From assembly GCA_012517355.1 (NCBI GenBank), contig JAAYVD010000026.1, forward strand, positions 1 to 32,567: a stretch of 32,567 nt of DNA, written 5' to 3'. The notes under the pieces were generated by a model. The model did no database searches. It saw only the letters and a program-made list of their open reading frames with translations, and was not told the origin of the DNA. Each line of letters begins with the position of its first letter. Positions within the stretch are counted from its first letter, which is position 1. The position numbers and the translations under genes were made by a program. Origin of the DNA: Candidatus Rifleibacteriota bacterium. Lineage in GTDB: Bacteria; Muiribacteriota; Ozemobacteria; Ozemobacterales; Ozemobacteraceae. This document shows, one piece after another, positions 1-29,231 of this stretch.

Positions 1-2676
1 GGCGGCGGCCAGGCGGTCGCAGAGGGCCAGGACGGGGGTGGGGTCGGCGGCAGGGGTGAAGGCGGCCACGGCGCGCCCGGCCTCGTCGGCGAGGGCCTGG
101 GTGGCCGCGGCGAGGGCGGCCAGGCGGGCCGTCTCCGAGGCGTCGGCGGCGATCCGGTCGCGGGCGGCCTCGGCTTCCTTGACGCGGTCGGCGAGGCCGG
201 GGGTGGCGGGGAACTGCCGCTGCAGGTCATGCAGCCAGGCCAGGGCGCGGGCGGGATCGGTGGGCAGGGCGGCGGCGGCTTCGCGTTGGAAGCGCTCGAT
301 CCAGGCCGTCTGCGCCTGGGCGGCGGCGGTGGCGAGGCCGGCGGCCTTCATCTCCTGCAGGGTGGCCGCCAGTTCGGCGGTGCCGGAGCCGGGGGCGAGC
401 GCGGCCAGCAGGGCGTCAGCCCTCTGCCGGAGGGCCTGCTCGGCGGCGCGGCGGGCGGCTTCGGCCTGCAGCTCCGTCCGGTAGGCGAGGAGGTCGAGGG
501 CGGCGGAGGCGTTGACCGGGTTGACCCGGACGGCCTCCTCGAACAGCAGGAGCGCCTGGGTGGCCTGGCCGGTGCGCCGGGCCTCGCGGGCGCGCCGTTC
601 GAACTCGCCGCTGATGACCGGCCGGAAGGCCTGGGCCAGGGGCCCGCCGCTGGTGGCGTATTCCAGGCTGACCAGGTGGCGGGCCGCCTCCTCGAACTCA
701 CCGAGGGCCACCGCCCGCCGGATCTCGGCCTCGAGGGCGGGGATGGTCAGCAGGGTCGGCCCTGGCCGGGGGGGCGTCGGCGGAGCCGGGCTCCGGAACC
801 AGAGGAAGCCGGCGACCAGGAGCACGGCCAGGGCGGCGCCGCCGGCCAGCAGGCGGTTCCGGCGGGCTCCGGCGGCCGCCTCGTCGTCGAAAAGGGTGCG
901 CAGGGGGGCGGTGCGGCGGCTCTTGGAGCTCTTGCGTCGGCCGCTCTCTTCCGCGGCCTCCTCGGCGGGCTGGTTTTCCAGGAAGGCTTCCAGGGCATCG
1001 ATCACCTCGTCGGGGCGGGGGCGGGCCTCGGGGTTCTTGTCGAGCATCCGGCGGATGAGGGGCAGCAGGGGGGCGACCGCCTGGTCGGGGATGAGCACCT
1101 GGGCGGGCAGCGTGCTCTCGATGTGCATGGCGGCGACGGCGACGGCCGCGTTGGTGGGGCCGGTCGCCACGAAGGGTGGCTGGCCGAACAGCAGTTCCCA
1201 GAAGATGACGCCGATCGAGTAGATGTCGGACTGCCCGGTGAGGGCCTTGTCGCCGAGGCACTGCTCGGGGGACATGTATTCGGGGGTGCCGATCGTCATG
1301 CCGGTGCGGGTGACGCTGACGGTGCCGCGGGCGATGCCGAAGTCGAGGATCTTGAGGAGCCCGTCGCGGGTCACGTAGAGGTTGCCCGGCTTGATGTCGC
1401 GGTGGATGATGCCGCGGGCGTGGCAGGCGGCGATGCCCTCGAGCAGTTGCAGCATCAGGGGGGCGACCTTGCGGGGGTTCTTCAGCAGGGTCGGCTTGAG
1501 GGTGTCGAGGGTGACCCCGTCGATGTACTCCATGACCAGGAACGGCTGGCCGCTGGTCTTCTCGACCGAGGAGGCGAAGATGCCCACCACGTTGGGATGG
1601 CCGACCGTGGCCAGCAGCTGGCCTTCCCGGACGAACCGGTCGAGGATGCCGGCATCCTGGCGGGCCTCGTCGGTGAGGATCTTGAGCGCCACGGTGCGGT
1701 TGAGGGCGGTGTCGCGCACCTTGTAGACGCGCCCCATGCCGCCCTCACCCAGGAGGCTCTCGATGTGGTAGATGTCGTTGACCACGCCCCCCACCTGGAA
1801 CGGGCTGCCCGCCGGCGTCGCCGTTTCCGGGCCGGCCTGGAGGCGCTTGACCTCCCCCTTGAGGACCTCGATGATGGTCGGGATGGCCGGGCGGTCTTCC
1901 GGCTTCTTGGCCAGCATGCCGCTCAGCAGGTCGCGCAGGCGGGTGCCGAGGGGGCTTTCCGTGAGCTTGTCGAGGGGGGGCGGTTCGTTGAGGTGCATCA
2001 GGGCGATGGCCAGGGCGGGGTCGTCGGCCCCCGACCCGATGTCGAAGGGCAGGTGTCCGGTCAAAAACTCCCAGAGCATGACGCCGATCGAGTAGATGTC
2101 GGCCTTGGCGCTGATCTCCTGCTTGCCGAGACACTGTTCGGGCGACATGTAATGGGGGGTTCCCATGGCGATGCCGGTGCGGGTCTGCTTCTGGGCGGTC
2201 TTGGCGATGCCGAAATCGACGATCCGGAGTTTCCCCTCGCGGTTGACCAGGACGTTGCCGGGTTTGATGTCGCGATGGATGATGCCCTTCTGGTGGCAGG
2301 CGTGGATGCCGTCGAGCAGTTCGATGAAGTGGCGCAGCAGGCTCAGGGGGTTCTGCTGGTAGTCTTCGCGGCGCTTGTCGATGCTGACGCCGTCGAAGAA
2401 CTCCATGACCAGAAAACTGCAGTTCAGCTTCTCGTCGATGTCGGAGGCATAGACGGTGACGACGGCCGGGTGGGTGATCGTGGCCAGGATGCGGCCCTCG
2501 TTGAGGAACCGCTGGGCGAGCTCCTGGTTGTGGCTGATGTCTTCCAGGAGGAACTTGATGGCCACCTCGCGCCCGAGGTTCTGGTCGAGGGCGCGGAAGA
2601 CCATGCCCATGCCGCCCGCGCCCAGCTGGGCGAGGATCTTGTAATGCCGTCCGACGATCGAATCGATCTTGATCAT
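1..2676 (-). CDS. Serine/threonine protein kinase with two tandem kinase domains (C-terminus beyond the window)
   Basis: Start ATG at 2676; 892 codons are open to the left edge, so the protein is partial. Two complete Hanks-type kinase domains lie in series. Domain 1 (about residues 10-270) has the glycine loop GAGGMG, VAIK Lys41, HRD 134-136 with DIKPGN, and DFG 154-156. Domain 2 (about 310-570) has GEGGMG, VALK Lys332, HRD 425-427 and DFG 445-447. Both look catalytically intact. A basic stretch and one transmembrane segment (about 608-627) follow, then an Ala/Glu-rich helical region that would be extracytoplasmic. PknB-like kinases phosphorylate Ser/Thr of cytoplasmic partners and sense signals through the outer domain. 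The gene is last in a minus-strand run behind the methyltransferase (79 bp gap). There is no clear ribosome site before the ATG; a TACATT box 17 nt upstream could give it its own short-leader promoter. The FHA protein at 14341-16518 is a candidate substrate (inference). Confidence 0.93.
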   Translation of the reverse strand, partial: MIKIDSIVGRHYKILAQLGAGGMGMVFRALDQNLGREVAIKFLLEDISHNQELAQRFLNEGRILATITHPAVVTVYASDIDEKLNCSFLVMEFFDGVSIDKRREDYQQNPLSLLRHFIELLDGIHACHQKGIIHRDIKPGNVLVNREGKLRIVDFGIAKTAQKQTRTGIAMGTPHYMSPEQCLGKQEISAKADIYSIGVMLWEFLTGHLPFDIGSGADDPALAIALMHLNEPPPLDKLTESPLGTRLRDLLSGMLAKKPEDRPAIPTIIEVLKGEVKRLQAGPETATPAGSPFQVGGVVNDIYHIESLLGEGGMGRVYKVRDTALNRTVALKILTDEARQDAGILDRFVREGQLLATVGHPNVVGIFASSVEKTSGQPFLVMEYIDGVTLDTLKPTLLKNPRKVAPLMLQLLEGIAACHARGIIHRDIKPGNLYVTRDGLLKILDFGIARGTVSVTRTGMTIGTPEYMSPEQCLGDKALTGQSDIYSIGVIFWELLFGQPPFVATGPTNAAVAVAAMHIESTLPAQVLIPDQAVAPLLPLIRRMLDKNPEARPRPDEVIDALEAFLENQPAEEAAEESGRRKSSKSRRTAPLRTLFDDEAAAGARRNRLLAGGAALAVLLVAGFLWFRSPAPPTPPRPGPTLLTIPALEAEIRRAVALGEFEEAARHLVSLEYATSGGPLAQAFRPVISGEFERRAREARRTGQATQALLLFEEAVRVNPVNASAALDLLAYRTELQAEAARRAAEQALRQRADALLAALAPGSGTAELAATLQEMKAAGLATAAAQAQTAWIERFQREAAAALPTDPARALAWLHDLQRQFPATPGLADRVKEAEAARDRIAADASETARLAALAAATQALADEAGRAVAAFTPAADPTPVLALCDRLAAA

Positions 2677-2755
2677 GGGTCCCGTGGTGGTTGAATGTAC
2701 GACAGCCACTCTCGTCCGTCAAGGGAGTGGAAGAGGGCCAGGGGGGGAAACGAGG

Positions 2756-4299: not shown

Positions 4300-7200
4300 A
4301 TGACGAACCCCGATCCACGGCAGACCCTCGACACCCTGGCGCAGGAGCTGGCCAAGCGCCGGGCGGCTCACCAGTCCGGCATCCAGGGCAGCCGGTGGCG
4401 GCGGCGGGCGCTGCGGACCCTGGTCGGGCTGGTGGCCCTGGTCTTTTTGGGGCTGGCAGGGGTCTTCTTCGTCAATTTCTTCCGGCTGAACAGCGACCTG
4501 ATCGAGGGCCACATCAAGGGCAGCGTCCTGCCGGGCCTCACGCAGGGCCGGTTCCCCCTCGACGTGGGACGCATCTCGGGCGACCTGCTGCACGGCATCG
4601 AGCTGGAGCACCTGATGGTGCGCAACCCGGCCTTTCCGGCGGGCGGGGTGTTCGTGTCGATTCCGCGTATCTCCCTGCGCTATTCGCTGTTCGACGTGTT
4701 CTTCGGCAATCTCGTCCTGGAGCGGGTCATCATCCAGGACCCGGTGGTCAACCTGTCGCGGGGCCCCGACGGCCGCGCCATCTGGGATTTTCCAGCCGCG
4801 TCGGGAACGGCCACGGCTTCTGAACCGGCGGTCGCCCCTGACCTGGGCGTCGCTCCGAACCAGGGCGGCGCCCCGAACCCAGACGCTCTTTCCGGTCAGC
4901 CCGGGGCCCCGGGCACGGTGGCCGGTTCGGGATTGACCGCCGGCCCCGGGACGGCCCCGGCCTCCGAACCGGTCGGGGTTGCCGGGACGGCTGCCGCGCC
5001 GGGCAGGCCAGCGGCCATTCCGAACGGCTCCGCCCGTGCCCCAGCCATGGGGGGGAACGGCCCCGCCCCGGTGGATTCGCCCGGGTCGGCCGGGCCCGAG
5101 GGCGCCGCGGGACCGGCGACGGGCTCGCGACGGGGCGGGCTCGCCCGGGCCCAGGCCCGCGCCCAGGTGCTGGCCGACCGCTACCTGGCGCACGTCGAGA
5201 TCCGCAACCTGAGCCTGCTGGTTCCCAATCCCCGCGATCTGCTGCCCGACCCCACGGTTGCCCGCCTGCTGCGCCTGCCCCCCGGCAACTTCTACCGCAC
5301 CGGCCTGAACCTGCTCCTGCGCAAGTTCCCCGGCCGCGACTTCACAACGCACCTGCTCAAGGTGACCCTCCCGGAAGACCCCTCCTTCCTGACCTTCCAG
5401 GTCACCCGTCTGAACACCACCGGCGATTTCACCCTGTCGGCCCAGTTCCTGCGGCAGGATTTCGAACTGGCCGTCCAGAATCTCGGGGCCGCCGGCCGCC
5501 GCGTGCTGTTCTACGACGGCCGCGACAAGAGCCGGCTCAACCTCCGGTGGCTGCTCGGTCGGCCAGGAAAACCTCTTCCCGAGCGCATCACCGGGATGAC
5601 GGGCGTCCTGCGCCTCGATTCACTGGCCCCCCTGGAATCCTGGCTCCCGGAAGGGGCCCGCCTGGCCGGCAGCGTCCGCATCGACCTCAGCGCCACCGAC
5701 ACCTCCCCCCTGCGCGAGACCGTGGTGGCCTGCGAGGCCGCCGGCCTGCGCGCCGAGCTGCCCGGGCTGCCGCCGCTCGAGAACCTCGACCTGAAGCTCA
5801 CCTCGCGCGGCGGGCTGGCCGCCGTCGAACGGGCCACCTTCCAGGTCGCCGGCTTCGTCTCGAGCCATACCGGCACGCTCGACCTGCGGAACCCCGACCA
5901 CCTGTCGGGCGAGTTTTCCTCGGTGCTGGCCGGCGACCCGCTGACCCTGCGCACCGGCTGGCGCAAGGTGGAGGGCGGGGAATCCCGTCTCTGGCTGGTC
6001 GTGGGCCGCCCCGGCGGCGAACTGAACCTCGAGGCCACCCGGTTGCTGACCCACGGCGTGGCCTCCTACCGCGATCTCACCGGCCGCCTCGAGGTGGCCG
6101 CCGACCGGTCCGTCTGGGACCTCGTCCCCACCCGGCTGCTGGCCCCCTCGATCCGTGAGCGGTTCCAGGCCTTCTTCGACAAGGTGACCGTCGTCGGGCC
6201 CTTGCGGGCCGACGTGGCCATCCCCTCGCCCGCCGACTGGCCCCGCGGCACCGCCGACCTCCGGCTCGACGGGGCCCGCCTCCAAAACCGCCAGAACCCG
6301 GCGCAGGGAGTGGTCCTGGGCGGGCAGGTGCGGCTGTCGCAGGGCCGCCTGCAACTGGCCGACACCTCGGCCACCCTGGCCGCGCTGACGGCCATGGCCA
6401 GCGGCGTGGTGACCTTCGCCACCGACTCGCGCCGCGTGTCCGCCTACGACCTGGAGGTCACCGGTTCCCTCGCCGGCGGGAAGGTCCTCAGCGTGACCGG
6501 CGACCAGGTCGCCGACTCCTGCGGGCTGGCCCGCCCGCCCTTCGACTCGCTCGAACTGGAAGGCGGGCGGGTGGTCGAGGCCCGCGTCACCTGGCCCGGG
6601 CCGGCCCCGGTCGCCCGGGTGGCCGCCGACCGCGTCCGCCTGAAGAAGGACGGCAAGCCCTGGTGGATCGACAAGCTGCAGGCCGAGGTGCGGCCCGATG
6701 CCGCGCCCGATCCGGCGGGGTGGCGGCCCCGGCTGTGGGAGGCCACCGCCTCCTGCCGCCTGTTCGAGGTCGACCTGCAGCTGGCCGCCGCGGTCGAGCC
6801 CGCCTCGCGCACCTTCCGGCGGTTCCGCGCCGACGGGAAGGGGGACGACCTGCAAGCCGTGGTGAAGGGCCTGGCCGGGATCCCCGCCGTGGGCGCGGCC
6901 CTGAAGAAATGGGGCCTGTCGGTGGCGGGCGGGTTCACGTTCGGGGCGGGCGGTCAGGGCCCCTTCGCCCGCCCGGCGGTCGAGGCCACCCTCGACGTGC
7001 CCCGGCTGCGGCTGTCGGCGCGCGACGCGGTGGCCGAGATGCCGTTCACCGCCTCGTTCACCTCGCCGGCGGAGGGCCGCTATCGCGGTCAGGTGCGCAC
7101 CCGCAAGGCGGCGCTCACCGTGCGGGGCGTGGCCTTCCCCCTCGACGCCGCGCAGGCCGAGATCAGCTGGGACCGCTCCCAGGGCAAGGCCGGGCAGGTG

Positions 7201-9072
7201 CTCGGGGTGCAGGCGCAGGTGCAGAGCTTCGGCACGACGGTGGCGGCGCGCGGGGAATACCTTCCCACCCAGGGGCAGATCCGGCAGGCGGCGGGCACCA
7301 TCGCCAGCACGCGCATCGAGGAACTGGCCCGTGAAGTGGCGCGCATCGGGAAGTTCAACCTGCCGTTCACCCTGGTCGGCAAGGCCGGTGGGGAATGGAA
7401 GCTCGCCGGGCCGGTCGCCGACCCGCGCGGGGAGGGCTTTCTCGAGGTCGACAGCCTGGGGCTGACCTTCCCGCTGCGGCAGCGGGGCAACCAGGTCATC
7501 GCCCTGCAGGTCGAGGACCTGGCCGGCCGGCTGGGCGTGAAATACGGGGGCCGCGACGGGGAGTCGGCGGTCAGCCTGGCCGGGGTGCGGGGGAAGGTGC
7601 TCGGCGCCGACCTGTTCTGCGAGGGTTCCGGCCGCCTGCGCCGGCAGGGCGGGGGGACGGTGCCCGAGTTCGACCGGGTGGTGGCCAGTTTCACCGGCCT
7701 GCCCGCCGACCGCACCTTCGCGTTGCTCGCGGCGGGCTACTTCCCCCCCGCCACCACCGCCCAGATCAAGGAGGTGGCCGGCACCCTCTCGGGCAGCCTC
7801 GACCTCGGCGGCGCGCAGAACCGGTTCCACGCGGTCGGCGAGGCGCGCCTCGAGGGCGGCCGGCTGCACCACCAGCTCCTGCAGGCGCCGCTCGAGCAGA
7901 TGAAGGGCCGGTTCCTGTTCTCGCGGCGGGCGGGCGAGTCCTTCCCGGTCGTCGAGATCCGCGATTTCGCGGCCGTCCTGGGCCGGACGCGCTTCGGCAT
8001 CCCGCTGGGCCGGTTCACCGACCCGCAGGGGGCCGGCGGCCTGGAACTGGAGGGCCGGATCGACCAGACCTTCCCCACCGACATCATGAAGCTGCTGTCG
8101 GGCTGGAGCCTGCCAAGCGTCACCTTCCCGAAGGAGGGGGCGATGTCCGGGCGGGTGCGGGTGGCCGGCACGCTGGGCCGGCCGCGGCTCGCTCTCGATC
8201 TCGAGACGATGGCGATGCTGGTCGACTACCGCACCGACCAGCAGAACTACACGGTTCCCCTCGGGAAGTGCCTGGTGGGGCTGGCCTACGACCCCGGCAC
8301 CGGCGAGGCGCGGGTGGCCACCTGTTCGCTCGGCCTGCTGGGCGGGCGGATCGAGGTGTCACGCGCCGAGGCGGTCCTCGACAAGGGGCGGCCGCGGCGG
8401 TTCGCGGTGGCCGGGAAGCTGCAGGGCATCGACGTGGGCACGCTGCGGACGGGCGGGGAGACCGCCCTGCGCGGGGTGATGGACGGCACCTTCACGGCCG
8501 AGCAGACGGCCACCGGCAGCCGGGAGGCCCTGTTCCAGCTGGCCTTCCGCGATATCGTGGTGCCGCAGATCCCCGTCGACCCGGAAGCGGTGCAGAAGAT
8601 CGGCCTCGAGTTCCTCGAGTCGCCCGAGTTCACGGTGGGCCGGCTCAACCTCTACCTGTCGAGCGACGAGGAGGCCGGCCAGCAGGGGCGGGTGCGCGTG
8701 GCCGACGGGCTGTTCGCCGGCCCGGACATGCGGCTCGAGATCGGCAACAGCGCCTTCGACCCCCTCAACCTGCAGCTCGACGCCAAGATCTTCTTCAACC
8801 CGCAGCCGCTGCGCACCACCAAGCTGGGCCGCAAGCTCGGCTCGTTGACCAAGCACCTGCAGGACTCAAAGACCGGCCTTCCCTTCGTCGATCTGACCGT
8901 CAGCGGCCACTGGGACAACCCCGGCCTGCTCGGCAGGACCATCTCCAAACGGGCCGAGAGTCGCGGCAAGCGCAACTTCATCAAGAGCATCTTCGGCGGT
9001 CGCCGCGCCCACAAGGCCAGCGTCGAGGAACTGATGGAATGGTTCCCCGGCTGGAAGCCCGAAAAACCGTGA
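4300..9072 (+). CDS. AsmA/TamB-like large envelope protein
   Basis: 1590 residues. A basic cytoplasmic N-terminus is followed by a single transmembrane helix (about 40-61), then a very long periplasmic region rich in beta-strand repeats. The segment after the helix (DVGRISGDLLHGIELEHL, then a 'SIPRISLRYSLFDVFFGNLVLERVIIQDP' type region around residues 111-142) is the usual AsmA/TamB/YhdP N-terminal pattern. Repeated 'tGtwdnP/varp' style strands recur, ending in VDLTVSGHWDNPGLLG near the C-terminus. AsmA-like proteins form groove-shaped bridges thought to carry phospholipids between inner and outer membranes. The protein is longer than TamB or YhdP (about 1260), partly because of a Pro/Ala/Gly-rich linker at about residues 168-280. 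The start is fixed by GGAAGGAG 7 nt before the ATG. It is transcribed alone and converges on the phospholipase D gene. The subfamily is uncertain. Confidence 0.85.
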   Translation: MTNPDPRQTLDTLAQELAKRRAAHQSGIQGSRWRRRALRTLVGLVALVFLGLAGVFFVNFFRLNSDLIEGHIKGSVLPGLTQGRFPLDVGRISGDLLHGIELEHLMVRNPAFPAGGVFVSIPRISLRYSLFDVFFGNLVLERVIIQDPVVNLSRGPDGRAIWDFPAASGTATASEPAVAPDLGVAPNQGGAPNPDALSGQPGAPGTVAGSGLTAGPGTAPASEPVGVAGTAAAPGRPAAIPNGSARAPAMGGNGPAPVDSPGSAGPEGAAGPATGSRRGGLARAQARAQVLADRYLAHVEIRNLSLLVPNPRDLLPDPTVARLLRLPPGNFYRTGLNLLLRKFPGRDFTTHLLKVTLPEDPSFLTFQVTRLNTTGDFTLSAQFLRQDFELAVQNLGAAGRRVLFYDGRDKSRLNLRWLLGRPGKPLPERITGMTGVLRLDSLAPLESWLPEGARLAGSVRIDLSATDTSPLRETVVACEAAGLRAELPGLPPLENLDLKLTSRGGLAAVERATFQVAGFVSSHTGTLDLRNPDHLSGEFSSVLAGDPLTLRTGWRKVEGGESRLWLVVGRPGGELNLEATRLLTHGVASYRDLTGRLEVAADRSVWDLVPTRLLAPSIRERFQAFFDKVTVVGPLRADVAIPSPADWPRGTADLRLDGARLQNRQNPAQGVVLGGQVRLSQGRLQLADTSATLAALTAMASGVVTFATDSRRVSAYDLEVTGSLAGGKVLSVTGDQVADSCGLARPPFDSLELEGGRVVEARVTWPGPAPVARVAADRVRLKKDGKPWWIDKLQAEVRPDAAPDPAGWRPRLWEATASCRLFEVDLQLAAAVEPASRTFRRFRADGKGDDLQAVVKGLAGIPAVGAALKKWGLSVAGGFTFGAGGQGPFARPAVEATLDVPRLRLSARDAVAEMPFTASFTSPAEGRYRGQVRTRKAALTVRGVAFPLDAAQAEISWDRSQGKAGQVLGVQAQVQSFGTTVAARGEYLPTQGQIRQAAGTIASTRIEELAREVARIGKFNLPFTLVGKAGGEWKLAGPVADPRGEGFLEVDSLGLTFPLRQRGNQVIALQVEDLAGRLGVKYGGRDGESAVSLAGVRGKVLGADLFCEGSGRLRRQGGGTVPEFDRVVASFTGLPADRTFALLAAGYFPPATTAQIKEVAGTLSGSLDLGGAQNRFHAVGEARLEGGRLHHQLLQAPLEQMKGRFLFSRRAGESFPVVEIRDFAAVLGRTRFGIPLGRFTDPQGAGGLELEGRIDQTFPTDIMKLLSGWSLPSVTFPKEGAMSGRVRVAGTLGRPRLALDLETMAMLVDYRTDQQNYTVPLGKCLVGLAYDPGTGEARVATCSLGLLGGRIEVSRAEAVLDKGRPRRFAVAGKLQGIDVGTLRTGGETALRGVMDGTFTAEQTATGSREALFQLAFRDIVVPQIPVDPEAVQKIGLEFLESPEFTVGRLNLYLSSDEEAGQQGRVRVADGLFAGPDMRLEIGNSAFDPLNLQLDAKIFFNPQPLRTTKLGRKLGSLTKHLQDSKTGLPFVDLTVSGHWDNPGLLGRTISKRAESRGKRNFIKSIFGGRRAHKASVEELMEWFPGWKPEKP

Positions 9073-11179: not shown

Positions 11180-11290
11180 CCAGGGGCGGACCCCCGGCGA
11201 CCGACGCCGGAAGACCCCTGCCCGCCAGGGAAGGCAGCGCGGATCGCCCGTTTCGCGCCAGGTATGGGGGCGTCCGCGAGGAGCCGGACG

Positions 11291-13105
11291 ATGCAGCATC
11301 CCGAGGGGACCCCCGACCTGCAGGCCGCGGTGCGGGCCGCGGTGGACAAGACCGAATTCTTCTCGCGCCTGCAGGAGAAGCAGCGGGAACAGGTGATCGA
11401 GAAGGCCGGGGTGCTCGAGAGGTATGCGCCCGACGAGGCGCTGGTCAAGACCGGCGAGCCCGGCGACTCGCTGTTCGTCATCGTGACGGGCGAGGTGGGG
11501 ATCGTGGTCGGCCAGGGCGACGACGCGATCGAGCTGACCCGGCTCGGCCCCGGGCAGCTGGTCGGCGAGATGGCCGTGCTCCTCGAGGAGACCCGCACCG
11601 CCTCTGTCATCGCGCGCGCGGAGACCACCATCATGCGCATCTCGCGCGATGTGTTCCGGAAGATCCTGGTCGCCATCCCCGAGGCGGGGCTGGCCATGAT
11701 GCGGCTGCTGGCCGAGCGGTTGAAGAAGACCTCGAAACCGCCCGCCCACCGGGATTTCACGGCCGACTCGCCGATCCCGCCGGTCGAGGTGCTGCGGCTG
11801 ATCCCGTCGGCGTTCATGCAGCGCCACCGGGTCGCCCCGGTCCGGCTGGTGCAGAACAAGCTGCTGCTGGGCTGTTGCGACACGGTCGATCAGACCGTCC
11901 TCAACGCGGTGGCCAACATGCTGCCCAGCATGCGGGTGGAGACGGTGACCATCGACCTGGCCTTTTTCAACAAGATCCTGCAGAACTTCGCGGGGGATGC
12001 GGCGGCGGGGGCCGGCGAGGCGGGCGAGGGGTCGGGGGCGAAGCACGTCGACGACCTCCTGCGGCGGCTGGTCGAGGAGGGCGGTTCCGACCTGCACCTG
12101 CCCGCCGGCCAGGTGCCGCGGTGGCGGATCGACGGCGAGATCACCCCCATCGCCGGGTTCAACCGGCTGGGCCCGGACGAGGTGCTGCGGCTACTGCGCC
12201 CCGTCATGCCGGCCGACGCGGCGGCGCAGTTCGAGCAGGACCACGACGGGGATTTCGCCTACGCGATGGACCGCAACTCCCGGTTCCGCATCAACCTGCT
12301 GCGCGACCACCGGGGCGTCAGCGCCGTGTTCCGGCACATTCCCAACACCATCTTCTCGCTGGCGGAACTGGGCATGCCCGAGATCCTGGCGCGGTTCTGC
12401 GGGCAGACCCGGGGCCTCGTGCTGGTGTCGGGGGCGGCCGGCAGCGGCCGGTCGACGACCCTGGCGGCCATGGTCGACCACATCAACCGGAACCGGAAGT
12501 CCCACATCCTGACCCTCGAGGACCCGATCGAGTTCGTGCACGAAAGCGCCCAGTCACTGGTCACGCAGCGCGAGGTGGGGCCGCACACCCGCAGTTTCGC
12601 GCGCGCCCTGCGGGCGGCGTTGCGCGAGGACCCGGACGTGGTGATGGTGGGCGCCCTGCGGGACCGCGAGACGATCGCCATGGCGCTCGAGACGGCCAAC
12701 ACCGGCCGGCTGGTGCTGGCCTCGATGCACACCGCGACCGCCGCGACCACCATCGACGGCCTCGTCGGGCAGTTCCCCGCCGACGCCCAGGCCCAGGTGC
12801 GGTCCCTGCTCGCCGACACCCTGGTCGGGATGGTCTGCCAGACCCTGTGCCGGAAGGTCGGGGGCGGCCGGGTGCCGGCGCTCGAGATCCTGGTCAACGA
12901 CTACGAGATCGCCGGTCTGGTGCGCGAGGGGAAGACCCACAACCTGCCGGGCACGATGATCATGGGCCAGGCCAAGGGCAACCGCCTGCTCAACGACGAG
13001 CTGCAGAAACTGGTCGCCGCGAAGAAGATCGCCCCGGAGGAGGCGCTGGCCCGCTCCTGCGACCGCCGCGAACTCGAGAAGAAACTGGGAACCCGGCTGA
13101 CCTGA
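11291..13105 (+). CDS. Cyclic-nucleotide-binding domain + GspE_N + PilT-like ATPase with degenerate catalytic motifs
   Basis: 604 residues. Residues about 20-135 are a CAP_ED/cyclic-nucleotide-binding domain (KTGEPGDSLFVIVTGEVGIV, GQLVGEMAVLLEETRTASV). Residues about 163-235 look like GspE_N/MshEN. From about 250 it is PilT-like: DLLRRLVEEGGSDLHL, ILTLEDPIEFVH (Asp box), the PDVVMVG strand, and the His box ASMHTAT with His480. PilT/GspE ATPases drive pilus retraction or assembly and secretion. Here the Walker A is GAAGSGRST, with Arg387 in place of the invariant Lys, and the Walker B glutamate (family GEMRD/GEIRD) is Ala455 in GALRD. Both changes are plain in the DNA. ATP hydrolysis is probably lost or greatly reduced, which suggests a regulatory subunit controlled by a cyclic nucleotide (inference). 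The ATG at 11291 has GAGGAG 7 nt upstream; the in-frame ATG at 11264 lacks one. No other pil or gsp gene adjoins. Confidence 0.9.
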   Translation: MQHPEGTPDLQAAVRAAVDKTEFFSRLQEKQREQVIEKAGVLERYAPDEALVKTGEPGDSLFVIVTGEVGIVVGQGDDAIELTRLGPGQLVGEMAVLLEETRTASVIARAETTIMRISRDVFRKILVAIPEAGLAMMRLLAERLKKTSKPPAHRDFTADSPIPPVEVLRLIPSAFMQRHRVAPVRLVQNKLLLGCCDTVDQTVLNAVANMLPSMRVETVTIDLAFFNKILQNFAGDAAAGAGEAGEGSGAKHVDDLLRRLVEEGGSDLHLPAGQVPRWRIDGEITPIAGFNRLGPDEVLRLLRPVMPADAAAQFEQDHDGDFAYAMDRNSRFRINLLRDHRGVSAVFRHIPNTIFSLAELGMPEILARFCGQTRGLVLVSGAAGSGRSTTLAAMVDHINRNRKSHILTLEDPIEFVHESAQSLVTQREVGPHTRSFARALRAALREDPDVVMVGALRDRETIAMALETANTGRLVLASMHTATAATTIDGLVGQFPADAQAQVRSLLADTLVGMVCQTLCRKVGGGRVPALEILVNDYEIAGLVREGKTHNLPGTMIMGQAKGNRLLNDELQKLVAAKKIAPEEALARSCDRRELEKKLGTRLT

Positions 13106-14312: not shown

Positions 14313-14334
14313 TGGTATACTCAACCTGGAGGAA
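14313..14334 (+). promoter_or_regulatory. Extended -10 and ribosome site of the FHA gene
   Basis: TGGTATACT (TATACT at 14316-14321) is followed by GGAGGAA (14328-14334) and ATG at 14341. The start point would fall near 14328, giving a leader of about 13 nt. No good -35 is seen. Confidence 0.55.
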
Positions 14335-14340
14335 CAACCG

Positions 14341-16518
14341 ATGAGAGGACCCTTGCAGACGACGGGTTTCCGGGCACTTTCCCTGGTGGGGCAACAGGCG
14401 GTGATGACGCGACCCCGGTCCCGGTCCCGAACCCCTCGACCCCGAGGAGCCGTCCTGGTTATCCTGCTGCTGGCGGTGGCCGCCGTGGCGGGGGCCGCCG
14501 ACCTGGTCGTGCCGGCCACCTCCAAGCCGGAAATGCTGTTCGTGGTCGAGGTGACCTTGCCCGCCGCGGCCCCCAGCCCTGCGCGGATCCGGTTCGACGG
14601 GCGGGCGGTGCAGTTCGCCGGCCCCGTCGTCTCCACCCCCGAGGTGCAGTTCATCCCCGAGAGCACCGTCGAGATCCACCCAGAGGCCGGCCGCCCGGGC
14701 ACCTTCGGGTTGAAGTTCCTGGCCCTGCCGGGAACCACCGCCGCGACCTTCTCGCTGCAGGTGGGAAGCGAAATTACCGAACGGGGCATGGCCTTCCTGG
14801 CTCAAGAGGAGAAGGGCGGGTATTCCCTGCTGGTGTTGGCCGGCGGCGTGGTGCTGCTGATCCTGGCCTGGAAGATGTGGCAGGTCCAGAAGAAGCACCC
14901 CGCGCTGATGTCCACGCGCTCGTTGTTCATGAACTACGAAGCTCTGGAAAAGCTGCGCCAGGAGTATTTCCCGGGCAGCCAGGGGGAAAAGCCGGCCTCG
15001 CCGGGAACCGGACCTGCGCCGGCCGCTCCGGCCGGGGCGGCCACTTCCCCCGGAAACGCGCAGGGAGCCGTCACTTCCGAGACCTCCGCGCCGGCCGCTT
15101 CCGATGGGCATGGCACCCCCACAGGAACCGCTTCCGCTTTTGGCACCCCCGGTGTCTCCGGGCCCGCTTCCGCAGGTGGAGCGCCCCTCTCAGGGGGGAC
15201 TTCCGCGCCTCCGGCGGCCCCCGCCACTTTGACAACCAACGCTCCTTCGGCGTCGGATGCCGACAACCACACCCGCCCCATGACCTTGCCGGGTGCCGGC
15301 AGGCCGGGAACGGGGGGCACCCAGCCGGAATCCGGCCCCCCCCCGGCCACCATCACGGACCTCCCCGCAGCGACGCCGACCCTCGCCGATCGCCCGGCCG
15401 TGATGCCGACCCTCGCTGACCGGCCGGCCGTGACGCCGACCCTCGCCGATCGTCCGGCCGTGACGCCAACCCTCGCTGACCGGCCGGCCGTGACGCCGAC
15501 CCTCGCCGATCGCCCGGCCGTGATGCCGACCCTCGCCGATCGCCCGGCCGTGACGCCGACCCTCGCTGACCGGCCGGCCGTGACGAGCGCGCCCACCAGC
15601 GGGCTGGGCGAACCCACCCAGGCCGACCGGCCTGTCGTGACGGAACGGGCGGGCGAAAACGGTCCGCGGGCCACGATCGACGATCAGCCCCTCAGTCCGG
15701 CCGCCGGGTACCAAGCCACTCCCCAGGCCACGGTCCTCGACCAGCCGGCCGCGTCATCGACCGATCCTCACCCGGCGGCCTCCGCCACGGTCACCGGGCA
15801 ACCGGCCGTTCCGTCCGCCGCAGTTTCCGCCGGCGCTGCGGCCACGGTCACCGACCAGCCCGCCGTCCCCCTTTTCCCAAGACCGACGGCGACCCTCGTC
15901 GATCAGCCGCCCGTTCCGGCGGCGGGGGGAGCGACCATCCGTCGTCCCTCGGTGAAGACGCCCGCCGTCACCCTTCCCGACACGCCTGCTGCCACCCCGT
16001 CAGCGGCCGGCCCGACCGCACCAGACATGCCAACCGGAGTCCCCGCAGGCGGGGCGACCGTCCAGCGGCCGTCGGCCCGGAAACCCGCGGTCACCCTTCC
16101 CGACACGCCGGCGCCCGGTTCCTCGCGGCCGTCCGCCACGCTTCCGGCAGACCCCGCGGCCTCCGACCCCGGCGCCACCCGCGCCGCGCCCTCGCGTTCC
16201 CCCTCGGGCAAGGCCCCGGCCGCCGGTGCCCTGACCATCCGGCTCGCGGACGACCGGCAACGGGAGTTCACCGGCTCCGGTCCCGAGATCACCATCGGCC
16301 GCCGGAAGGAGAACGTCATCAGCCTGACCGGCGCCGAGATCAGCCGGCACCACGTGACGATCAAGGCGGAGGGAGAAGGGTTCGTGGTCGTGCCGGTGTC
16401 GAAGAGCAACCTGACCGCGGTCAACGGAACCCGCCTGTCGGGCCCCGCGCCGATCAAGGAAGGGGACGAACTCGCCCTGGGCGGGACCCCCTTCCGGATC
16501 CTGGAGCTGCGGCGGTAG
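14341..16518 (+). CDS. Membrane FHA-domain protein with a long T-x-x-D repeat tail
   Basis: 725 residues. An Arg-rich N-terminus leads into a hydrophobic signal segment (about 36-52). A beta-rich extracytoplasmic region of about 100 residues and a transmembrane helix (about 160-180, SLLVLAGGVVLLILAWKMW) follow. After that comes a Pro/Ala/Thr-rich cytoplasmic linker of roughly 450 residues, then a C-terminal FHA domain (about 631-725). The FHA has the usual pThr-contact residues: GRR in ITIGRRKEN, ISRHH, and VNG. FHA domains bind phosphothreonine, often with Asp or a hydrophobic residue at +3. The linker (about 337-588) holds TLADRPAV seven times in tandem, then TQAD, TIDD, TVLD, TVTD, TLVD, TAPD and TLPD twice, with TITD before the array. 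GGAGGAA supports the ATG at 14341; a later ATG at 14404 would give a shorter signal peptide but has no ribosome site. Substrate of a nearby kinase is an inference. Confidence 0.88.
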   Translation: MRGPLQTTGFRALSLVGQQAVMTRPRSRSRTPRPRGAVLVILLLAVAAVAGAADLVVPATSKPEMLFVVEVTLPAAAPSPARIRFDGRAVQFAGPVVSTPEVQFIPESTVEIHPEAGRPGTFGLKFLALPGTTAATFSLQVGSEITERGMAFLAQEEKGGYSLLVLAGGVVLLILAWKMWQVQKKHPALMSTRSLFMNYEALEKLRQEYFPGSQGEKPASPGTGPAPAAPAGAATSPGNAQGAVTSETSAPAASDGHGTPTGTASAFGTPGVSGPASAGGAPLSGGTSAPPAAPATLTTNAPSASDADNHTRPMTLPGAGRPGTGGTQPESGPPPATITDLPAATPTLADRPAVMPTLADRPAVTPTLADRPAVTPTLADRPAVTPTLADRPAVMPTLADRPAVTPTLADRPAVTSAPTSGLGEPTQADRPVVTERAGENGPRATIDDQPLSPAAGYQATPQATVLDQPAASSTDPHPAASATVTGQPAVPSAAVSAGAAATVTDQPAVPLFPRPTATLVDQPPVPAAGGATIRRPSVKTPAVTLPDTPAATPSAAGPTAPDMPTGVPAGGATVQRPSARKPAVTLPDTPAPGSSRPSATLPADPAASDPGATRAAPSRSPSGKAPAAGALTIRLADDRQREFTGSGPEITIGRRKENVISLTGAEISRHHVTIKAEGEGFVVVPVSKSNLTAVNGTRLSGPAPIKEGDELALGGTPFRILELRR
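15382..15591 (+). repeat. Seven in-frame 30-bp tandem repeats coding TLADRPAV(T/M)P
   Basis: Each unit begins CTCGCC/CTCGCT and ends in CCGACC or CCAACC; the last diverges at its end. Two sequence types alternate (CTCGCCGATCG and CTCGCTGACCG), in the order A-B-A-B-A-A-B. That indicates recent duplication of one- and two-unit blocks. More diverged copies continue downstream to about 16107. Confidence 0.95.
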
Positions 16519-19398: not shown

Positions 19399-19770
19399 GA
19401 ATTCCGAATTCCGCGAATTCCGCGCGAATTCCGCGAATTCCGCGAATTCCGGGGACATGATACGAATTCCGGGGACATGATACGGAATTCCGGGGACATG
19501 ATACGGAACTCCAATGTCTCAGCGACGCCGGGCAAACGGGTATCATGTCCCCGGAACTCCAATTGGGTATCATGTCCCCGGAACTCGGAACTCTGCCGCC
19601 GAAGCGGTGCGAACATCATCGTGGCGGGGAGGAGAATTCCGGGGACATGATACGGAACTCCAATGTCCCGAATTCCGGGGACATGATACGGAACTCCAAT
19701 GTCCCAGCGACGCCGGGCAATTGGGTATCATGTCCCCGGAACTCCGCGGGGTATCATGTCCCCGGAACTC
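19399..19770. repeat. Palindromic repeat array (family 1, core GGGGACATGATAC)
   Basis: Nine exact copies of the 13-nt core occur in two orientations. Forward copies are at 19451, 19471, 19492, 19641 and 19677; reverse copies (GTATCATGTCCCC) are at 19540, 19567, 19725 and 19751. The order is FFF-RR, FF-RR, so two large hairpins can form. A linker beginning GGAACTCCAATGTC and containing AGCGACGCCGGGCAA is duplicated at about 19505-19539 and 19690-19724. The left flank (19399-19450) is a short tandem run of GAATTCCGC. The inverted pairs resemble REP/BIME arrays mobilised by REP-associated (Y1) transposases; no transposase gene is in the window. Confidence 0.9.
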
Positions 19771-19814
19771 CGCAGGAGGAGGGCCAGGCAACACAGGGTG
19801 AACAGACGCTTCAT
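19735..19814 (-). pseudogene. Truncated small secreted-protein gene cut off by the repeat array
   Basis: An ATG at 19814 with GAGG about 6 nt upstream opens a frame MKRLFTLCCLALLL, a typical signal-peptide start. It then runs directly into repeat sequence (RSSGDMIP...) and stops after about 27 residues. It lies 58 bp downstream of the terminator of lipoprotein B and has the spacing of a once-independent gene. It may be a third lipoprotein or secreted gene whose body was lost or replaced when the array expanded. It could also be a chance frame. Confidence 0.4.
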
Positions 19815-29138: not shown

Positions 29139-29159
29139 CAAATCCGCCGCCCGGTCCGG

Positions 29160-29231
29160 GAATTTCGGGGACCCATGACCAAATTCTGCTGCCGGGGGAA
29201 TTTCGGGGACACCTGACCAAATTCTGCTGCC
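29160..29231 (+). repeat. Two direct copies of the family-2 repeat (core GGGGACACATGACCAAATT)
   Basis: GAATTTCGGGGAC(C/A)C(A/C)TGACCAAATTCTGCTGC occurs twice at 29160 and 29198, 38 bp apart. The core is related to family 1 (GAATTCCGGGGACATGATAC). They lie 22 bp upstream of the -10 of the CofG-like fusion. The gap 29142-29664 holds this pair, the decamer run at 29291 and a pyrimidine-rich stretch near 29480-29520, but no gene. Confidence 0.85.

Follow-up and report, generated by a model that had tools for sequence, protein, structure and literature searches.

What is an array of sixteen T-x-x-D motifs for in the cytoplasmic linker of a bacterial membrane protein that ends in an FHA domain, and is that FHA domain its reader? 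The gene lies in a window of 32,567 nucleotides, one contig of a draft genome (7.1 Mb, 184 contigs), and all sequences compared with it also come from draft genomes. The sequences lead us to propose, with a probability of roughly 0.45, that the protein is a kinase-controlled membrane scaffold bearing a multivalent array of threonine motifs.

The gene is a complete coding sequence for 725 residues (14341..16518, forward strand, as are all features of the protein given below) that starts at ATG 14341, with a GGAGG at 14328-14332, 8 bases upstream. Residue numbers such as R630 and Glu642 follow the frame of the alignment, which starts at 14413, and not the ATG. A signal peptide is followed by a predicted periplasmic β-sandwich of nine strands (14500..14796; AlphaFold pLDDT 83; Foldseek), for which the best Foldseek match is a weak one to the reeler domain of F-spondin (E 2e-4, TM 0.47-0.57). 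The model and the alignment place a single transmembrane helix at 14821..14895, and the KK/R-rich segment after it indicates an N-out/C-in orientation. The cytoplasmic juxtamembrane segment MSTRSLFMNYEALEK (14908..14967), in which M, S, T, S and L are invariant in 16 homologues, is among the best-conserved parts of the family and is predicted to be helical with moderate-to-low confidence. A Pro/Ala/Thr-rich linker (14974..16215), with disorder predicted in its modelled part (15841 on), leads to the FHA domain (16288..16482; Pfam PF00498, alignment, AlphaFold and Foldseek). For this gene the nearest relative with a name is Candidatus Ozemobacter sibiricus (QOQW01000006.1); the bacteria concerned form a poorly studied, uncultured group whose phylum is taken to be Riflebacteria. 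The 16 homologues align over the periplasmic domain, the transmembrane helix, the juxtamembrane MSTRSLFMNYEELEK and the FHA domain; their linkers are unalignable. Within the bacterial family, 16 of 24 genomes encode this architecture of N-terminal region and FHA domain; outside it, the phylum members searched yielded no example. Elsewhere in the window (19405-19773 and 29158-29231), a number of short tandem repeats share the core GAATTCCGGGGACA(T) and seem to form a family of repeated elements.

A reading of the DNA alone (hereafter the sequence-only reading) had counted about sixteen T-x-x-D motifs in the linker, and the in-frame total at 15349-16110 is exactly 16: TITD, seven TLAD, TQAD, TIDD, TVLD, TVTD, TLVD, TAPD and two TLPD. 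The first lies in TITDLP (15349..15366) and is followed by seven 30-bp tandem copies encoding TLADRPAV[TM]P (15379..15588), whose hexamers differ only synonymously (pS 0.34, pN 0). The diverged units TQADRP, TIDDQP, TVLDQP, TVTGQP and TVTDQP, spaced by exactly 19 residues, together with TLVDQP, occupy 15616..15909, and TLPDTP, TAPDMP and TLPDTP complete the array at 15970..16110. In 2000 composition-preserving shuffles of the 410-residue linker, T-x-x-D occurred 3.1 times on average and at most 10 times; T-x-x-D-[QR]-P, present 12 times, is expected 0.04 times. The TLAD copies have recently been homogenised, copies 1 and 5 and copies 2 and 4 being identical at the DNA level, and they constitute one 30-bp array rather than seven independent observations. 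When they are collapsed to one, 10 T-x-x-D remain against 2.2 expected, a count reached in 0 of 5000 shuffles, which rules out chance or composition as the source of the array. Thr stands at -3 of 16 of the 23 Asp residues in the linker, and Thr–Asp offsets of +1, +2 and +4 show no enrichment there. Thr, Asp+3 and Pro had also been described as the residues kept across diverged repeats, and the five units at 19-residue spacing agree with this (Thr 5/5, Asp 4/5, Gln/Arg 5/5, Pro at +5 5/5), although their spacers are only 15-21% identical. The spacing of the units is regular yet independent of sequence, with periods of 12 and 19 residues. Among 10 FHA loci, 22 kinase loci and the homologues, no other frame with at least two T-x-x-D-[QR]-P was found, and searches with the linker sequence gave this orthologue as the sole confident match. 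A single ATVADRP, which matches the hexamer, lies just ahead of the kinase domain of another kinase (G000:C59:8317-9066, L057).

Comparison of repeat units within each protein, hexamer against spacer, in three congeneric species gave pN/pS values of 0, 0.22, 0.38 and 0.6 for the hexamer and 0.58-1.1 for the spacer. By repeat set, pN was 0, 0.12, 0.25 and 0.29 in the hexamer against 0.13, 0.37, 0.53 and 0.63 in the spacer, with synonymous change broadly alike in the two and about 0.5-0.65 in the diverged (older) sets. Purifying selection thus acts on the hexamer and the spacers drift, as expected of a genuine linear motif and not of slippage noise, and pure slippage is ruled out by this contrast in pN/pS. 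Judged from these comparisons, the hexamer is very probably a functional linear motif.

The constraint covers the whole hexamer: positions +4 (Gln/Arg) and +5 (Pro) are kept to the same degree as Thr. Rather than presenting a phospho-acceptor, the hexamer could dock a partner many times independently of phosphorylation, the Thr forming part of a rigid binding peptide. Such a peptide would explain why Asp (11/13), Gln/Arg (12/13) and Pro (12/13) are as strict as Thr (10/13) in O. sibiricus, and why two degenerate units retain DQP or QP while losing Thr or Asp. We nevertheless consider this rather unlikely, given an FHA reader in the same chain, an adjacent kinase and a strong preference for Thr over Ser. 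The hexamer is probably phosphorylated.

The identity of the C-terminal domain as an FHA domain with its pThr-binding residues in place was confirmed by the match to PF00498 (E=2.6e-13, 50.6 bits against a cut-off of 20.7) and by a pocket that is invariant in the 16 homologues (G629, R630, S644, R645, H647 and N666; the alignment places the pThr-pocket residues R630 at 16300, S644 at 16342 and N666 at 16408). The model of the domain is confident (pLDDT about 95), and its best structure matches are EmbR, GarA and OdhI. The further argument, that Asp+3 is an FHA preference and that this FHA domain hence binds it, proved weak. The Asp+3 selectivity of Rad53 FHA1 depends on Arg83, which forms a salt bridge with Asp+3, and according to the same source the FHA +3 rule does not hold generally (PMC4037201). 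At the position of Arg83, two residues before the conserved Ser, the alignment places Glu642 (16336-16338), which is invariant in 16/16 homologues; the Arg on which Rad53 FHA1-type selectivity depends was found in none of them. An acidic residue at this position should disfavour Asp+3, so that Asp+3 is no predictor of self-binding, and it is doubtful that the protein's own FHA domain reads the hexamer array. Two other FHA domains of the genome (C22 and C114) have Arg at this position and could read the hexamer in trans. The placement of the linker relative to the FHA groove in the AlphaFold model, which is unphosphorylated, is uninformative (pLDDT about 50-65).

Another candidate ligand lies next to the FHA domain. 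Two copies of a T-[VI]-x-R box, ATIRRPSVK (15931..15957) and ATVQRPSAR (16054..16080), are present in the linker, and the second is near-identical, as ATVQRPSA[RK], in three congeneric species. Boxes of the form [KAQ]T[VIL]x[RK] number 9 against 0.8 expected over 16 linkers from several genera and mostly lie no more than about 100 residues from the FHA domain. The FHA domain might therefore read its own T-[VI]-x-R box (ATVQRPSAR) in an intramolecular switch resembling that of GarA/OdhI, with the T-x-x-D array serving the kinase or another reader; Arg+3 of the box would complement the invariant Glu642 by charge better than Asp+3. This arrangement appears unlikely, however, since g4 and a number of further genera have linkers that lack the box, and matching Arg+3 to Glu642 is an argument from charge in a fold whose +3 rules do not generalize (PMC4037201).

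Two further species of the genus have linkers with 9 and 8 T-x-x-D, with the consensus TLVDQP and mostly 12-residue periods. The array is known from these three species, all of one genus, over which the pooled count is 33 against 5.3 expected. In 13 homologues from other genera, T-x-x-D occurs at chance level (8 against 7.6 expected), so that the anticipated retention of Thr and Asp+3 in a drifting linker holds inside the genus, where the hexamer is kept, but fails beyond it. The linkers of the other genera display different Thr motifs, for example [DEN][KSNAG]T[VILM]P and TxEMP, and in the 13 homologues [DEN][KSNAG]T occurs 30 times against 11 expected and T-x-P 46 times against 27. Common to both groups is an enrichment of Thr followed by a hydrophobic residue [VILM] (37 against 13 in the genus, 43 against 28.5 in the other genera); Ser[VILM], conversely, is depleted in linkers family-wide. 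On this sequence evidence the Asp+3 motif is a genus-level trait, and the wider trait is the presence of repeated Thr-hydrophobic motifs. The linker of one genome (G014, L018) contains PTLPP/TIRST repeats and that of another (G004, L006) contains TxEMP and KTVARSG, which suggests motif turnover between genera. A neutral or entropic Pro/Ala/Thr spacer, generated by replication slippage and devoid of specific motif function, would fit the homogenised minisatellite of seven TLAD copies with its identical pairs, the variation in repeat number, period and linker length between species and the lack of the array outside the genus, but this very improbable explanation is already largely refuted by a hexamer pN far below the spacer pN in every repeat set and by the retention of T..D[QR]P in three species and in diverged units with unrelated spacers.

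The tail of the protein had been proposed as the substrate of a neighbouring kinase. A Ser/Thr kinase with twin kinase domains and a transmembrane segment, cut by the contig end, is encoded at 1..2709 on the reverse strand; a full-length orthologue (L094 3843-9251) contains two complete kinase domains, a transmembrane helix and a C-terminal NosD-like β-helix. The kinase is indeed a conserved neighbour, the order divergent twin-kinase, AsmA, FHA being found in 10 of 13 records (the remaining three include short contigs), but it runs on the minus strand (2709..1), divergently and outside the FHA operon, so that a single operon of kinase and FHA genes is ruled out. The kinase itself lacks the hexamer motif. 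The window also encodes an AsmA-like membrane protein (4300..9072, forward strand); in most relatives its gene immediately precedes the FHA gene, ending close to or just before it. Its assignment is marginal for the orthologue L095 (PF05170, 30.4 bits against 29.8, E 2.5e-7), and the window's own copy gave no PF05170 match in the Pfam search. Extra genes separate the two in the window, including one for an HD-domain protein; also between them, and not found there in most relatives, is a fusion of a cyclic-nucleotide-binding domain, an MshEN-like domain and a PilT-type ATPase (11264-13105, forward strand). Across the family, a genome has either both the AsmA-like and the FHA gene or neither, with the sole exception of the fragmentary genome G016, in which AsmA is truncated at a contig end. 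Other genera retain FHA, kinase and AsmA without the Asp+3 motif, and the exact motif is therefore dispensable for the module. This conserved neighbourhood provides the strongest support for a functional link between kinase and FHA protein, and there is perhaps an even chance that the divergent kinase phosphorylates the hexamer. These partners are not unique, since the genome also holds at least 15 further kinase-domain loci and nine further FHA domains. The AsmA family has a known role in envelope lipid handling, which by analogy is a possible client process.

The kinase-controlled scaffold that we favour would sit in the inner membrane, its periplasmic β-sandwich, transmembrane helix and juxtamembrane segment followed by a disordered linker of Thr motifs and a cytoplasmic FHA domain, and would work in a module with the membrane twin-kinase and the AsmA-like envelope protein. 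The T-x-x-D-[QR]-P hexamers would most likely be multisite phospho-acceptor or docking motifs for the twin-kinase system and, once phosphorylated, could offer many weak sites to FHA domains, whether these belong to adjacent copies of the protein or to different FHA proteins of the same cell; such binding may cluster the complex at the membrane. The architecture, FHA pocket, array, selection on the hexamer, gene neighbourhood and AsmA co-occurrence are present in the sequences; from there we infer phosphorylation, the identity of the kinase, FHA-array binding and clustering. A phosphorylation-switched membrane scaffold, as the sequence-only reading had envisaged, thus remains plausible in view of the kinase neighbour, the Thr[VILM] enrichment, the pThr pocket and the selection on the hexamer, but its argument from Asp+3 to FHA binding is weak. 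A fuller version, in which the twin-kinase phosphorylates the array of a new Ozemobacter-family envelope module, multivalent FHA-pThr binding clusters an AsmA-type lipid-handling protein and the specificity of motif and reader is re-invented in each genus, is speculative and improbable as a whole.

The view that a tandem array of this kind lacks precedent was too strong; Rv1747 and human MDC1 come nearest to it. The Mycobacterium tuberculosis protein Rv1747 clusters through FHA domains and a phosphorylated disordered linker: according to a review (PMC9312465, citing Heinkel 2019), its FHA-linker-FHA region condenses once phosphorylated by PknF, and membrane clusters are seen. Like the present protein, Rv1747 is a membrane protein with a cytoplasmic FHA domain and a disordered linker, and in Rv1747 the linker is phosphorylated by a Ser/Thr kinase (PMC9312465); here membrane protein, disordered linker and FHA domain are all predicted and the kinase is a conserved neighbour. 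Rv1747 differs in having two FHA domains and an ABC transporter, as opposed to one FHA domain, a periplasmic sandwich and a tandem array. To our knowledge, no array of repeated hexamers has been described for Rv1747. Human MDC1 is an FHA protein with its own phospho-read motif sets, SDTD (read by NBS1) and TQxF, and it oligomerises through its FHA domain and has repeats that are specific to lineages (PMC11014961, PMC6858307); it is a nuclear DNA-damage mediator with BRCT domains, related only through the FHA domain, and shows that a motif array and the FHA domain of the same protein may have different partners. GarA and OdhI have the same FHA fold and a single N-terminal pThr bound by their own FHA domain, but they are soluble, have one site and, in GarA, Thr at the Glu642 position; the NCBIfam OdhI model scores 22.1 bits, below its cut-off of 200. 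Bdellovibrio DgcB likewise binds its own phosphorylated N-terminal tail (PDB code 6hc1; PMC6733907), but with a single site and a GGDEF output. Type VI secretion Fha/TagH forms an inner-membrane kinase-FHA pair with PpkA, and Fha/PpkA forms condensates (PMC12607579); its architecture and neighbours are different, and the Fha/TagH model TIGR03354 scores 25 bits, below its cut-off of 120, as does the FhaB/FipA (Rv0019c) model NF049868 (29.6 bits against 125). No bacterial FHA protein with tandem ligand repeats was found in a literature search that covered mainly open-access papers.

Rv1747, Fha/PpkA and MDC1 already pair FHA scaffolds with phosphorylated regions or arrays, and the principle is therefore known. 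What is new is that a bacterial membrane FHA protein carries an array of tandem hexamers, that this array turns over at the level of the genus, and that kinase, AsmA and FHA genes form a conserved cluster. Since the motif changes between genera while the +3-contact residue of the reader is fixed, T-x-x-D by itself is not a safe guide to the ligands of an FHA domain. If the proposal is correct, bacteria too would have a multisite FHA scaffold comparable to MDC1, encoded in one gene cluster together with its kinase and a putative envelope client, and the natural series of arrays with 8, 9 and 16 T-x-x-D would bear on how valency sets clustering at the membrane.
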